This document shows, in pieces, positions 4,213-62,265 of a stretch of DNA of 64,000 bases; position 1 is the stretch's first letter; each line of letters opens with the position of its first letter. The stretch covers positions 11,656,817 through 11,720,816 of the forward strand of contig OY987249.1 of assembly GCA_963920765.1 (NCBI GenBank). Direction: 5' to 3'. The notes below the pieces were generated by a model. The model was not told where the DNA came from. It made no database searches and saw only the letters and a list, made by a program, of their open reading frames with translations. This DNA comes from Ulota crispa. Its lineage: Eukaryota > Streptophyta > Bryopsida > Orthotrichales > Orthotrichaceae. Both the position numbers and the translations under genes were made by a program.

Positions 4213-4214
4213 TA

Positions 4215-4801
4215 CTCCCTCTGTCCCATTATAAAGCTCCAAAAAACTTCTCCACGAGGGATTAACAGTATTTTAGTCATTATGCTAATGACAAATGCAT
4301 TCTAGAATCAATACACCACCTTCTAAGTATTTGCAAAATCTCAAGTTTTTATGTGCAAAGTCTCAAGTTTTTATGTTTTTGTTTAGGCACCCAAACTCCA
4401 TGTAATAAGTACCATATTTATGCATAGTTTGTGAAGAATGCTGACTCATTATTTTAGTCTTAATATTAATGACACATGCATTCTAGAATCAATATACCAT
4501 CTACCAAATGTATGCAAAATCTCTGCCTTTGATGTTGTTTGGGCACCCAAATTCCATGCAAAAAGTACCATATTTGTACATGTTGCTAGTTCCTCATTAT
4601 TGATGATTTACAAATTAGTAGCAACAATGGTACCTCATATGGTCAAGGCCAAGCTTGTTTGGCTCTTTAATTGCTTAACTTGCCCCCATGAGATCATTGG
4701 GCATGATGAATGCTTTCTCAACAACTAAAATTGGCAAAGGGAGCTTTTTAGTGGAACAAGAACTATGCTAAATTTGGAGTTTTATATTGGGACAGAGGGA
4801 G
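4215..4801. mobile_element. Stowaway-like MITE, copy 1
   Basis: The left end reads CTCCCTCTGTCCC and the right end is its inverse (GGGACAGAGGGAG). Both sides are flanked by TA (4213-4214 and 4802-4803), the target duplication of Tc1/mariner-type transposition. The element is about 587 bp with no open transposase frame. Its interior is shared with the copies at 14231-14601 and 38721-39529, for example the segment ATGAGATCATTG near the right end. It keeps an uninterrupted TTAA at the position where the third copy carries an insertion. Confidence 0.9.
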
Positions 4802-4866
4802 TAAGATATACGCCGTGTTATCTAATGCCACTAAGAAATCTTTCTAATATTGCATTTGTCTATTAA

Positions 4867-4937
4867 CCCCTAAATGCCTGTGGTACCAAACTCCATTGTA
4901 AAAACCACCAAAATTTGGTGCCACAGGCATTTAGGGG
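4867..4937. mobile_element. 71-bp TTAA-flanked mini-palindrome
   Basis: The ends CCCCTAAATGCCTGTGG and the exact inverse lie between TTAA 4863-4866 and TTAA 4938-4941. The whole unit can fold into one hairpin. It is the smallest class of the TTAA/CCCCTAAA group. Confidence 0.8.
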
Positions 4938-4965
4938 TTAAGTATTTGAACTTGTCTTTGCTTAA

Positions 4966-5198
4966 CCCGTAAAGGACAAGGCAGCCCTTTGCAACCAATA
5001 TAATACAAGGTATTTTTCTTGTATTTGGAGTGCATCCACACCTTTATCACATTTGAGATCAACAAAGAAGTTAGAATATAGATCAATGATGTTCTAGTGA
5101 GGTAGTCAATATCTCAAATTAAAACTTTTTGTTGGTAGCAATGCTAGTTATACAACAGCGTACATAGTATGTATTATAGTAGCACTGTCCTTTAAGGG
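4966..5198. mobile_element. TTAA-flanked CCC-ended MITE, subfamily A copy 1
   Basis: Ends CCCGTAAAGGAC and GTCCTTTAAGGG are bounded by TTAA 4962-4965 and 5199-5202. The 233-bp body aligns over almost its whole length with the element at 62024-62261, for example GTGCATCCACACCTTTAT and GTTCTAGTGAGGTAGTCAA. There is no coding capacity. Confidence 0.9.
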
Positions 5199-5202
5199 TT
5201 AA

Positions 5203-7202: not shown

Positions 7203-7258
7203 TTCACAACTTTTCCAACCCGATGCTCTAAAGAAAAAGCGCCACTCTTATTGTTTAA

Positions 7259-8190
7259 CCCCTAAAGGCCCATTGTCCCTTCGGGGACCGTTTGGGGTTT
7301 GGTCATGTACCTATGAGTAAACTATGTTATGTAATTTTCTGAAGCTTTTATGGGAGATGGGGTATTCAAAGATCTATGTGAGCATCAAATTTTTTCTTCA
7401 TTCCAACATTTATTGAAGAAGTTGTGCATGTTTTTTCTGAAATTTTGGGGAGAGCTGCCCATTTGGGCAGCCCAAAAACTTCTTTAAAATTTATGTATTT
7501 TTAAAATAAAATTTTGAAATTGCTTCTTTAGACTTTTTTCATACATGAGAAGCTTTGAATCATTCAATTTCAATCAATGACATGAAAGTTATAAGGAGTT
7601 TTGTTTGCGGGCAGTTATGGATTCTCTACTCCAAAATAAACTTTGAAGTCCTTTATTTTACTCAATTTTCAATATTTTGGAAAAAAAAATAAACCAAAGG
7701 AAGTAGATTGTTTAATACAATATTATCACCGTTGGAATTTGCATTTTTCATTTCAATAATTAGATTCTTAACAATTTAGTGTTTTGACCCATTCTCTACT
7801 TCTTTTTACTTATTGATTTTTCCCATGTGCTGTATAGTTCCAATTGATTTGAAAAATCTCCCACACATACCTAACTTGATCTTCTACATGGGAAAAAAAA
7901 CCTCAACTTTGTGTAGAGCAAATATTTTGATATAGGAGTAGTCAACGGTTTCTAAAATTTTTGGGCAATATGAAAAAAAACGTTTTCCTTTGCTTTGCAT
8001 GTAAATATCTCACTCCTTTTCATTTGGAATAAGCTCAATTTGTTTTCCCAAGTACCTCATACTGTCTAGAGCAAGATCTTACAATTAGATCAATTTCAAA
8101 AAAAAAACAAACAAAAAAACAATTCCTTTCACCCCAAAAGTGGCAGTTTTCATTGTTTTTCACAGAAAAAATGGCCTGGGCCTTTAGGGG
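7259..8190. mobile_element. TTAA-flanked CCCCTAAAGG element, subfamily B copy 1
   Basis: The left end CCCCTAAAGGCCCATTGTCC and the right end GGCCTGGGCCTTTAGGGG sit between TTAA 7255-7258 and TTAA 8191-8194. The 932-bp element is related to 33322-34341 in the opposite orientation. It shares an internal segment (AGAAGCTTTGAATCATTC) with the palindrome at 49428-50161. No transposase frame was seen. Confidence 0.88.
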
Positions 8191-8194
8191 TTAA

Positions 8195-14030: not shown

Positions 14031-17000
14031 TTAGATCACCGTTCCGTGCCTGATGACGGCGTTTTTGCAAATCACTGTTATCCCTGACCGAATGTAAAAG
14101 CCTTCGTTCGGCCTCGCTGCTTCGAACACATTCTGCACATGGCCAACAGCATCATAATCGAAGTAAGTTTATGTGTACACTGCTTTCTGTTGCAAAATTC
14201 AATAGATCTTGACAGTGAAACTAGGTTTTACTCCCTCTGTCCCTCTAAAAACGTCCAAAAAGCTTAACTGTGTTTTTAGTATTTGTGCTAGTGACACATG
14301 CATTCCAGAATCAATATACCATCTATCAAATGTATGCAAAATCTCCAGCTTTGATGTTGCCGTTTGGGCACCCAAATCCCATGCAAAAAGCAACAATGGT
14401 ACCTCATATGGGCAAAAGCCAAGCTTGCTAGGAGAGGAATGCTCTCTTAATCGCTTAACATGCCCCCCATGAGATCATTGAACATGACAAACACGCTTTC
14501 TCAACGTTTGAAATCAGCAAAAGAGGAGCTTTTTAGTGGTACAAGAAATGTGTCTGATTTGGAGCTGTCTGATTTGGAGCTTTTTAGAGGGACAGAGGGA
14601 GTACTGGTTGATTTGTGAACACCAAATGACGAAGGAAGAGAATGGAAAAAGTGGAGAAAAATTAGGGGGGGTGAGAGGGCGTACATCTGTGTTGGCGATG
14701 ACGACGTCGTTTCCAATGCGAGCATTCTTGTCAACAATGCAGTTCCTGATTTTGGTGTTGGCGCCAATGCCCAGAGGCACTTTGCCCTCTTGTAGCAAGG
14801 CCGCGGCTTCCGAGTCCGTTTCGTAGAAATCCGCCCCCATGACCATGGCGCGCTTCACGTCGCATCCGGACTCCAGCCTCGATCGAATGCCTAACACCGA
14901 GCTCTCCACTTTGCAGTCCTTCAGAAAACAGCCATGCGAAACGATGGAGTCCTTCACCCTGCACCCCTCGATCTTTGTGGGAGGCAGGTACCGTGCTGAC
15001 GTGTACGTCGGCTTGGCAGCGTCATAAAAACTGAACTTCGGTGGCTGCATTAGCACCAAAAAAAATCCCAACAACACCTCCGAGATAAGCCTTCTTCCCA
15101 ACAAAAAACCATTCCGAAGTGCTTCGTACAGGAAGGACTGTTATCATAAAGCCCAGAGCAGGGTTTTTTTTTTGGGCAATTAAAGGCCCAATTGCCTCAA
15201 AAAAACGAGGGTGAGCTTCAAGACTATAGAAAACAAAGGGGGGTTTTTTTTCAAAAAATGCCAGATTGCAGTAAAGAAAATTTGCATTGCAGTCTAGGCT
15301 TTCATAAAGTTCTTATCAACTTGAGAATTGATGTCATCATTTTATGATCAGACAGATCCAAAAGCACCGTTAAAAAAGTTGATTGTGCGAGCTTCTTCTT
15401 AGTTTCATTATTAATAGCCATGATGCTGCAAAAATCCATGCATAGGGGCCACCTTCAACTCCAACCAAAAATACGGATGGAGTCAGCAACCTACAAACTA
15501 TTTTCAAAGAATGCCACATACATGGCCAACGGTCAAAAAACCAGAAAAAATCTCTGCCCCAGAGTTGAGGGAAAAAGCTTAATATATACCTGAGATGTGA
15601 GAGCGAGATTGGCATCGAAGAAGGACTTGATGGTTCCAATGTCTTCCCAGTAATCGTTGAAGAGGTAGGCGTGCACGTTGAACTCCTTGGCAGACTGCGG
15701 AATGATTTCGGAGCCGAAGTCGTTGGCCAGGGGATACCTCCACCTCAGCAGCTTGGCCAGCACGCTTTTCTTGAACACGTAGATTCCCATGGAAGCGATG
15801 TATGGCTTCTTCTTTGCCTCCTCGGTGGACAAGCCCAGCACCGTCGTGTCCACTTGCTACAGGTACAACATCACAACGACATTCCCAAGGTCAGTCAATT
15901 CTGTCTCGAGTTCTAACGATGCTTTGAATTCTTACAGTACCCAGTCAACAATATTGTGTTGATTTGGACCTCTTGATTAGGACATTTTGAACATAGAAGT
16001 GTTGGTTAGGACATGTTTGTGTTGATTTGGACCACTTGATTTGGACAGATATTAAACCAATTAGTTTAACTCATAAACAACTTGTCCTTTCGGAGTTAAA
16101 GCGTGTGTCTCTTACCATGGATTGCAAATCGTCTCCCTTGGGCTTCTCCTTGAAGTGATTGATTCGGCCTTTACCATCAATCTTCATCAACCCAAAGTCA
16201 GACGCCCGGCTGTCGTCCATCGGTACACAAGAGACAGTAACATCGGCTCCAGAGTCCTTGTGCTTCTGAAAGTCCACATAGAAAAAAGACCTGAGTAAAA
16301 CTTCCATCCAGCAAAACAGACTCTGATAACGATAAAGTTGAAACAGCTCTGAAAATAAAACAAGACTCTGATTACGTATCTAGATTCAGCTTTCCATTCA
16401 AACGCGATATTCATTAATTTGAGAAAAAAGATACACTTTGGTGACTTTTGGATTTGATGGGTTTTAGAGATTTTTGGCGACTTAGAATGAATTTCATGAT
16501 GATTTCTTCAAGACCTTACATCAATAATGAAATATCTTGAAGGAGCTATCAAAAATCTTACAATAAAATCATCGAATTACTCTCACAAATGCTTAATTCA
16601 GTATTCTCAAAATGCATTTTGGGAAAGAGTTTTTCCCAAGACGAATATCGTTGAATCAATTTTTTCGTGAGGGCTCTCTGCTCACCTGCACAAAGTGTTC
16701 GTAATCCATGCGGTAGAGGTGATCGCCAGACAAGATAATCACATCCTCCACATCTTTATTCTTAGCATCCTCCAGCAACCACAGGTACTGCCGAACAGCG
16801 TCCGCAGTGCCTTGGAACCATTCCTGGCCACCCAGGCCGGGCCTCTGGGCAGCAGCCAAAACCTCCACATAGCCATCGCCAAAGTTACAGCCGTTGCCGA
16901 AGTTGTACGTGCGTGCCAAGTGTCGGTTTAATGACGTGGAGTTGAATTGCGTGAGCACGTAAATCTTGTTGATGCCGCTGTTGATGCAGTTGCTCATTGG

Positions 17001-38527: not shown

Positions 38528-38720
38528 TTAACATAAAGCATATCACCAAGGTAAACATTTTAGAGCCTTTTATGATTCCAATTTCCAATCTTATAATGAA
38601 ATCCATGAATGTCCAAAAAACTTGAAATGACTCTGATTGGATGCTAATTCTATCTCTTCCAAAAACAAAATATTAAAAAACATTTTGAAATTCAAACTCC
38701 CTAAACTTCGAATATAGTTA

Positions 38721-39529
38721 CCCCCCCTGTTCCTCTAAAAAGCTCCGAATTAGACACATTCCTTGTACTGCTAGAAGCTCCCTTTTGCTGATTTCAAAAG
38801 CTTAGAAAATGTTTGCCATGTTCAATGATCTCATGGGAGCAAGTTAACCCTTTAACGACTTGTTGACCAGTTCTTGTTCGATTTTTACTCTTTTCAATTT
38901 GTAAAGAGAGCATGTCAAGGAATTTGATAACATGGCAAAGGGGACGGATTTGGGGAATTGGAAAGTGAAGAGTTTAGGACAATAATCATGTCAATCTGAG
39001 GTCGCATGTGGCTAGAGGGTTGAAAAAACTAAAAGAGTACCGGCTGAAAATACACCAATAAATGCAAAAAAATGGTCATAATAACTAAAGAGTGAGCATA
39101 ATTCATGATGCATAACACTAAACGCTACAAGATACTTCCATTTGTACGGTCAAATTTGTGATAAACATCTGTATTCAATAACCCTAAAATGTCTCCCAAT
39201 GAAAATACAAAGGATTGCCCACCCCCAAAATCGACCACGGTCATTAAAGGGTTAAGCAATTAGAGAGCATTTCTCTCCTAGCAAGTTTGGCTTTGCCCAA
39301 TGAGGTATCATTGTTGCTAACAATCTTTAAATCATCAATAATGAGAAGCTTACACCGGGCACAAATATGGTACTTTTTGCATAGAATTTGGGTGCTCCAA
39401 TGGCAACATCAAAGCTGAAGATTTGGTAGATGGTATATTGATTGTAGAATGCATGTGTCACTAAGACTAAAAATACACTTAATCCTTTGCCAAGAAGCTT
39501 TTCGGACATGTTTAGAGGGACAGAAGGAG
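38721..39529. mobile_element. Stowaway-like MITE, copy 3, interrupted by a TTAA element
   Basis: The ends CCCCCCTGTTCCTCT and GGGACAGAAGGAG are diverged inverses flanked by TA (38719-38720 and 39530-39531). Orientation is opposite to copies 1 and 2. The body is split at CTCATGGGAGCAAG/GCAATTAGAGAGC by the insertion 38848-39251. Confidence 0.9.
38848..39251. mobile_element. Nested TTAA element with an internal empty-site proof
   Basis: Ends CCCTTTAACGAC and GGTCATTAAAGGG lie between TTAA 38844-38847 and TTAA 39252-39255. The sister MITEs at 4215-4801 and 14231-14601 read straight through the same position with a single TTAA. This defines the 404-bp element and its 4-bp target duplication exactly. 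Confidence 0.95.
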
Positions 39530-39534
39530 TACCT

Positions 39535-48973: not shown

Positions 48974-48977
48974 TTAA

Positions 48978-49215
48978 CCCCTAAAGGATGTTGCCTACCA
49001 AAAATATTGTTTGTATTTGTACAAGAACCATTTAGTACTTAAAGAAATGATTATATGACAAATGTTAAAAATTCCCCAAAAAATCCTATTTGACAAGTAG
49101 TATGTCTATGACTTGGCTTGAAACTTACAACTTCGATGGGGTTCATGTGCTATCCAAATCCCCATCCGTATACAACTTGGGAGTCTATATACAAAACAAC
49201 AACATCTTTTAGGGG
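48978..49215. mobile_element. TTAA-flanked CCCCTAAAGG MITE, 238 bp
   Basis: Ends CCCCTAAAGGATGTTG and CAACATCTTTTAGGGG are close inverses, between TTAA 48974-48977 and TTAA 49216-49219. Non-coding. Confidence 0.9.
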
Positions 49216-49427
49216 TTAATTTTTGCAAAACTTTTACCAATTTCTATTTAAACAATTACAAGAAAAAAAACATGTGGATTACCACATGTTAAATTTAATT
49301 TATTAGCAACTTTATTAATTTTTTTTAAAACTTGTTGGAGCTGATTACAAAAATCATGTTCAAGATCATTGTTGCTTACATTAGGATAACCACCGTGTGG
49401 CACCAGCTCCAATCATTAGAAGGTTAA

Positions 49428-50161
49428 CCCCTAAAGGTCCAAGCATTGTTTTTTTGGCAACATAGCAATTGTGGGCAGCTCACTAGAAATGGAGTTTTTA
49501 TTCTGTTTTCTTTGAACTTTTCATAAATGGTGTGCCCAAGGAGTAGCTTTATGGTCTAGCAATTTTCATAGCTTTTGACTACATGGCTCAAAAGATACTA
49601 CATGATATGTTGTTTTCTTTGTTTGGGGGCAGTCCGGCAGCTCCTAAAACTTCTTTAAAAATTCCATTTTTTTGATATTTAAAAAAAATCGTTTCTTTAG
49701 ATATACATGTATGTGAGAAGCTTTGAGTCATTCCATTTTTATTTACGAGATGAAAGTTATGAGAAGTTTTAATTTGCAAGTAGGTATGGAGTGTCTCTAA
49801 AACCATACCTACCCACAAACTAAAACAGTCATAACTTTCATCTCATAAATAAAAATGGAATGATTCAAAGCTTCTCACGTATATGTATATCTAAAGAACC
49901 AATTTCAAATTTTTTTTTAATTGTAAATTTTAAAGAAGTTTTAGGAGCTGCCCGGACTGGCCCCAAACAAAGAAAACAACATATCATGCAATATCTTTTG
50001 AACCATGTAGTTAAAAGTTATGAAAATTGCTAGGCCATAAAGCTACTCCTTGGGCACACCATGTGTGAAAATTTCAAAAAAAACAAAATAAAAACTCCAT
50101 TTGTAGTGAGCTGCCCAAAATTGCTGTATTGCCAAAAAAACAAAGTTTGGGCCTTTAGGGG
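49428..50161. mobile_element. TTAA-flanked 734-bp long palindrome
   Basis: The ends CCCCTAAAGGTCC and GGGCCTTTAGGGG lie between TTAA 49424-49427 and TTAA 50162-50165. The two halves are near-perfect inverses over about 360 bp each, meeting near 49795. For example GTAGGTATGG pairs with CCATACCTAC at the centre. Subfamily B elements share parts of one arm. Confidence 0.93.
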
Positions 50162-50165
50162 TTAA

Positions 50166-62019: not shown

Positions 62020-62023
62020 TTAA

Positions 62024-62261
62024 CCCTTGAACGACCGGACAGCCCTTTGTGACCAGTACAACACGGGGTGTTTTTCTTGTAGGAGTGCATCCACACCTTT
62101 ATTACATTTGAGATCAACAAAGAAGTTAGAATATATATCAATGCTGTTCTAGTGAGGTAGTCAAGATCCCAAATTAATACCTTTTATTGGTAGCAAATGC
62201 CAGTTATACAGCAGCATACATAGTACGGACTATGTATTATAGTAGTTCGGTTGTTCAAGGG
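62024..62261. mobile_element. TTAA-flanked CCC-ended MITE, subfamily A copy 2
   Basis: Ends CCCTTGAACGACCGG and TTCGGTTGTTCAAGGG lie between TTAA 62020-62023 and TTAA 62262-62265. The body aligns along its length with 4966-5198. Confidence 0.92.
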
Positions 62262-62265
62262 TTAA

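Follow-up and report, generated by a model that had tools for sequence, protein, structure and literature searches.

A probable non-autonomous piggyBac element nested at a TTAA of a Stowaway-like MITE in the moss Ulota crispa

The window, by which we mean the whole stretch of 64,000 nucleotides of Ulota crispa DNA analysed here, contains a Stowaway-like MITE interrupted by a 404-bp segment. This segment is very probably a non-autonomous piggyBac element that inserted at a TTAA of the MITE and whose ends correspond to those of 5.5-5.7-kb elements carrying a PF13843 gene. It has no PF13843 gene of its own and would most likely have been mobilized in trans by transposases of the clade to which the loci L061 and L063 belong. 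The nested pair offers a clean internal proof of target-site use. The features of the window that bear on this argument are the following.

38848..39251, plus strand, read from left end to right end: the 404-bp element, probably non-autonomous and of piggyBac type
38844..38847, no strand: left TTAA target duplication
39252..39255, no strand: right TTAA target duplication
38848..38859, plus strand: left tip CCCTTTAACGAC, itself containing a TTAA
39240..39251, minus strand: right tip, CCCTTTAATGAC in inward reading, itself containing a TTAA
38860..38869, plus strand: left subterminal palindrome, a degraded copy of the consensus TGGTCGACCA at bp 13-22 (position as read, function putative)
38875..38882, plus strand: left subterminal half-site, here TGTTCGAT, in the consensus TGGTCGAT at bp 28-35 (position as read, function putative)
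39230..39237, minus strand: right subterminal half-site TGGTCGAT, bp 15-22 from the right tip (position as read, function putative)
38719..38847, plus strand: arm of the interrupted MITE to the left of the element, with its TA and the left TTAA
39252..39531, plus strand: arm of the interrupted MITE to the right of the element, with the right TTAA and its TA
4213..4803, minus strand: sister MITE, empty site with one TTAA
14229..14603, minus strand: sister MITE, empty site with one TTAA

As the first-pass annotation had proposed, the MITE is split between two TTAA, and the intervening segment is exactly 404 bp long (38848-39251). The host element, presumably of the Stowaway type (a name that we take from that annotation), runs from 38719 to 39531 with TA counted; its left terminus is degenerate, and a CTCCCTC-type terminus with TA is found at its right end and in both sisters, each of which has TACTCCCTCTGTCCC as well as TA at both ends. 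The two sisters had been described as having a single TTAA at the same place and in the same orientation, spelled GGGCAAG/TTAA/GCAATT. Alignment confirms the single TTAA and the shared place, but not the orientation, since both sisters lie on the strand opposite to that of the interrupted copy; after reverse complementation, each sets one TTAA against the TTAA-element-TTAA arrangement. The spelling holds for the copy at 4213 but not for the one at 14229, which reads GGCATG/TTAA/GCGATT. On the minus strand, a frame at 14514-15104 holds an exon of a plant-type ADP-glucose pyrophosphorylase, and its downstream end overlaps the latter sister MITE, which probably lies within an intron.

One filled and two empty copies do not by themselves give the direction of the change, and the 404-bp segment could in principle be an ancestral part of the MITE that was precisely lost from the two sisters. 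The right arm of the MITE was therefore used as a query against the genome (274.8 Mb, 157 contigs), which yielded 2381 candidates, 40 of them scored; 15 of the scored matches were fetched, one being the window copy, so that 14 further copies could be compared. The first-pass annotation had raised the question of whether most copies of the MITE already hold the segment, and not one of these 14 has a match to it. Ten of them carry TTAA at the site (L067, L068 with one additional T, L070, L072, L074-L078 and L080), three have an altered site (L069, L073 and L079), and one, L071, is without the left arm. Since all 14 are without the segment, the insertion reading stands. The segment is, moreover, present at 39 other scored places, mostly with TTAA at both tips and in differing flanks, and we accordingly give precise loss from the sisters next to no credence. 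The left arm of a further copy, L072, contains at about 1833-2261 an insert distinct from the 404-bp segment, about 0.43 kb long and with inverted ends.

Copies of the 404-bp element were collected with a 405-bp query that combined 331 bp from the element with 74 bp from its right flank and that produced 2403 candidates; the 40 that were scored, the window copy included, are those nearest the query. The other 39 alignments all stop between query positions 335 and 344, position 335 being the final base of the right TTAA. The boundaries claimed for the element are fixed to the base, save for the ambiguity inherent in any target duplication, and that TTAA is the duplicated target is borne out by empty sites both in the two sisters and beyond them. 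The 40 copies diverge from their majority consensus by a median of 6.1%, with 772 transitions and 198 transversions. An internal 32-mer has 432 places in the genome at up to three mismatches and none for the backward control. From its first zero-mismatch places on the plus strand a second sample of 20 copies was taken, with copies in the first sample excluded; in this sample TTAA is present on both sides in 11 copies, on one side in seven and on neither in two.

It is conceivable that a Tourist-type (PIF/Harbinger) MITE with a 3-bp duplication of TTA or TAA gave the same picture, the flanking bases completing a TTAA. TTAA contains both trinucleotides, and an empty site alone cannot separate a 3-bp from a 4-bp duplication. 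The full tetranucleotide is, however, found at the predicted tips of the 40 scored copies on the left in 30, on the right in 38 and on both sides in 29, against a start frequency of TTAA in the window of 0.58% of positions. In addition, the tips are symmetrical only if the duplication is taken as four base pairs. Both begin with CCC in inverted orientation, and CCCTTTAACGAC and CCCTTTAATGAC differ at a single position in 12. Finally, both ends match those of elements with a PF13843 gene, as set out below. A Tourist origin is thus very improbable, and we favour the 4-bp duplication expected of a piggyBac element. At the predicted boundary, 11 of the 40 copies and 9 of the second 20 have no TTAA on one side or on both, a lack that, as judged by eye, indels explain in some cases but not in all. 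At four of the left misses (L010, L021, L024 and L027) the TTAACCC tip appears, again by eye, when small indels are allowed; in L092 and L100 of the second sample it is displaced inward from the predicted start by a few bases, and L104 extends past its fetched stretch.

Matched empty sites for further insertions, which the first-pass annotation had suggested looking for, were sought by joining the flanks of the 40 copies (150 bp per side, with one TTAA kept) and comparing the joins with the fetched loci. Two were found: L016 against L081, with 86% identity over 267 columns, and L020 against L063, with 82.5% over 309 columns, each with one intact TTAA at the join. Other joins were rejected as empty sites, those of L005 and L007 because the matches were weak or of low complexity, those of L006, L019, L034 and of L016 against L036 because the alignment was continuous but the site changed, and that of L033 because the TTAA of its paralogues (L035, L037) was one base off.

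Tips of this kind are probably not confined to the 404-bp size. The genome holds 2031 occurrences of TTAACCCNTTAANGAC, compared with four of the backward pattern, and TTAACCCNTNAANGNC is matched 15 times in the window but not once in 100 shuffles. Between 2166120 and 9827043 of contig G000:C1, seven pairs of TTAACCC tips face each other at a distance of 912-919 bp, a spacing that hints at a further size class bearing these tips. In the window, further TTAA-CCC...GGG-TTAA pairs stand at 4863-4941, 4962-5202, 7255-8194, 48974-49219, 49424-50165 and 62020-62265, with at most one mismatch in the first 13 tip bases.

The connection between the small element and a transposase was first noticed in L063 and in the right end of L061. 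In L063, a TTAA followed by a left end of the 404-type lies 5.65 kb from a right end adjoining TTGA, with the transposase gene between them; when the ends of L045 and L059 were fetched where this geometry predicted them, both were present in each locus. In all four elements of the clade, the left end departs from that of the 404-type at 9-10 of 36 positions and the right end at 7 of 30, and the order of the ends relative to the transposase gene is constant. The next-best matches of the window show 14 mismatches for the left end and 11 for the right, and those on the plus strand of one shuffled 64-kb sequence 16 and 12. Six of the eight ends adjoin TTAA and one adjoins TTGA, while in the remaining one, the left end of L061, the tip has been replaced. 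The transposase-bearing elements range in length from about 5.55 to 5.70 kb. Outside the ends, comparison of the 404-bp consensus with them gave no convincing similarity, only 13-base matches with E 0.5; with similarity thus confined to the ends, descent of the small element from one of the four long ones by simple deletion is unsupported. L062 has a PF13843 gene of another clade, and none of the TTAACCC sites near it is an end of the 404-type. When TTAACCC was sought in the 1.5-kb flanks of the first 20 transposase loci, candidate ends turned up at just three (L041, L046 and L050), and their tip sequences were different; flanks of this length are too short for the 404-type clade.

This linkage also bears on whether the element belongs to some other superfamily that targets TTAA. 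Sola3, for instance, makes a TTAA duplication, and such a duplication alone does not define piggyBac. Yet both ends of the small element flank a PF13843 gene in four of four elements of one clade, and an excerpt of PMC10813416 counts CCCTT and CCCAT among the tip motifs conserved in piggyBac. We therefore regard a Sola3-type origin as highly unlikely and continue to treat the element as a piggyBac derivative.

PF13843, the Pfam family of piggyBac transposases, gave at least 120 match rows above the cut-off in this genome (116 scored of 528 candidates), the best with E 1.3e-73, and no match in 14 control genomes. A 476-residue frame of L061 matches Trichoplusia ni (T. ni) piggyBac (6x67) with E 4e-20 and piggyBat (9c0f) with E 6e-17; a large protein collection yielded 16 relatives, the best at 53% identity over 91%, and none of the 16 bears a functional name. 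When 23 transposase loci (L041-L063) were compared, L061, L063, L045 and L059 formed one group with 56-68% mutual identity in their main tblastn matches and about 26-38% identity to the remaining loci. The catalytic motifs TVDxCMVA, TCDN and GGV[D/N]VxDQ are present in all four; assessed by motif, the triad is of the DDD type, with the variable position of the third motif being D in L063, L045 and L059 but N in L061. A CxxC...CxxC stretch lies 314-325 nt past the third motif in L063, L045 and L059, although patterns as loose as this match elsewhere too. No copy of the transposase is shown to be intact, given that stops interrupt 110 of the 120 rows (ten being stop-free) and that the cysteine motif either falls in another frame or follows a stop. 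On opposite strands, PF13843 matches of equal score form two pairs, one about 20 kb apart (G000:C7:18203169 and 18223004) and the other about 15 kb apart (G000:C2:36765124 and 36779670); both are likely to be inverted duplications.

How the 404-bp element may have moved can be pictured by analogy with T. ni piggyBac. As described in excerpts of PMC7351741, the transposase of the latter exposes a 3'-OH at each of the two ends, and attack by this hydroxyl four bases further out gives a hairpin of TTAA. Once the hairpin has been opened, the end is linked to a target TTAA, and the donor site is sealed with no footprint. With its TTAA duplications and precise empty sites, the moss element agrees with the products of that route, and the insect precedent leads us to expect hairpin chemistry and seamless excision here as well. 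A transposase of the L061/L063 clade, when functional, would bind to the tip and to the subterminal TGGTCGA sites, excise the element together with its TTAA and paste it, acting in trans, into another TTAA. Insertion at the TTAA of the older Stowaway-like MITE would then have duplicated that TTAA.

In the consensus, both ends open with a 12-bp tip when read inward. On the left, the tip is followed by the palindrome TGGTCGACCA at bp 13-22 and by TGGTCGAT at bp 28-35; on the right, TGGTCGAT follows at bp 15-22. This asymmetry with its subterminal repeats is kept in the long elements, and the repeats are candidate binding sites for the transposase by comparison with the known systems. T. ni piggyBac (PDB 6x67, 6x68) resembles the moss element in its TTAA duplication and CCC/GGG tips, and the moss long elements in its PF13843-type transposase. 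Its ends, too, are asymmetric with a repeated subterminal motif: according to excerpts of PMC7351741 and PMC11707139, identical 19-bp palindromic repeats are arranged asymmetrically, and one is bound by the cysteine-rich domains. In contrast, the moss ends have TGGTCGA motifs, other spacings and a TTAA within each tip, and the moss transposase-bearing elements are 5.5-5.7 kb long, as opposed to about 2.5 kb for T. ni piggyBac (excerpt of PMC10813416). PiggyBat of Myotis lucifugus (PDB 9c0f) shares with the moss elements a related transposase and two different ends, but, as far as the excerpt of PMC11707139 describes it, its right end is without the palindrome of the left end and its motifs differ. 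Asymmetric ends with subterminal repeats are thus not universal in the piggyBac superfamily.

Each tip contains a TTAA, so that the consensus and the window copy both have four, namely the two duplications and one per tip. Four of the 60 copies have a tip that is cut at this internal TTAA, on the left in L014 and L037 and on the right in L094 and L105; by eye, the cutting sequence begins with CCCC and resembles other TTAA elements, and in all four it appears to be another TTAA element that has cut the tip. The outer join of L037 reads TTAACCCATTAA and then CCCCTGAGCG, and its inner join is also visible, the site there being TTTA. Similarly, at 121-137 of L061 the left tip of a transposase-bearing element is cut at the tip-internal TTAA by another TTAA element. 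Since tips of the 404-bp family have been cut in this way in four copies, the element's own ends are themselves targets. A bolder proposal, which we advance tentatively and consider somewhat doubtful, is that mosses harbour a piggyBac clade of their own, as yet undescribed, that gave rise to hundreds of small elements and in which the TTAA of the tips act both as a brake and as a seed for nesting. If this were so, the tip TTAAs would be landing sites for TTAA elements, insertion there would disable an end, and the ends would constitute a built-in brake on the 404-bp family as well as a seed for nested TTAA elements.

We consider the 404-bp element to be a new family of a known kind of element in an unexpected host. 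Among the open-access papers listed in literature searches, none records piggyBac in a moss in its title or the beginning of its abstract, which is weak evidence of absence; a moss genome paper (PMC10619864) was set aside, as the excerpt of it uses “piggybacking” in another sense. For other plants, excerpts of published work list PiggyBac among the seven superfamilies of angiosperm MITEs (PMC10004981), give 1230 PiggyBac copies in a fern repeat table (PMC6890710) and include it among plant transposon superfamilies in one review (PMC10794571). These excerpts mention neither empty sites nor a link from small elements to a transposase, both of which are tested here in a moss. piggyBac is widely used in gene transfer and is mainly known from animals, and a land-plant genome with at least 120 PF13843 matches and 432 places of one small derivative provides plant biology with native ends and a clade of transposases for testing, as well as a reason to seek the superfamily in other bryophytes.

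An open matK frame on contig C157 shares 84% identity with Orthodontium lineare, a member of the Bryidae, 83% with Bartramia pomiformis and 94% with a further sequence, which places the host among the bryid mosses. A further observation concerns a large contig, G000:C7, on which a second open matK frame (L064) was found at 6541578-6542525, besides the one on C157; it probably reflects a recent insertion of plastid DNA into the nuclear genome.
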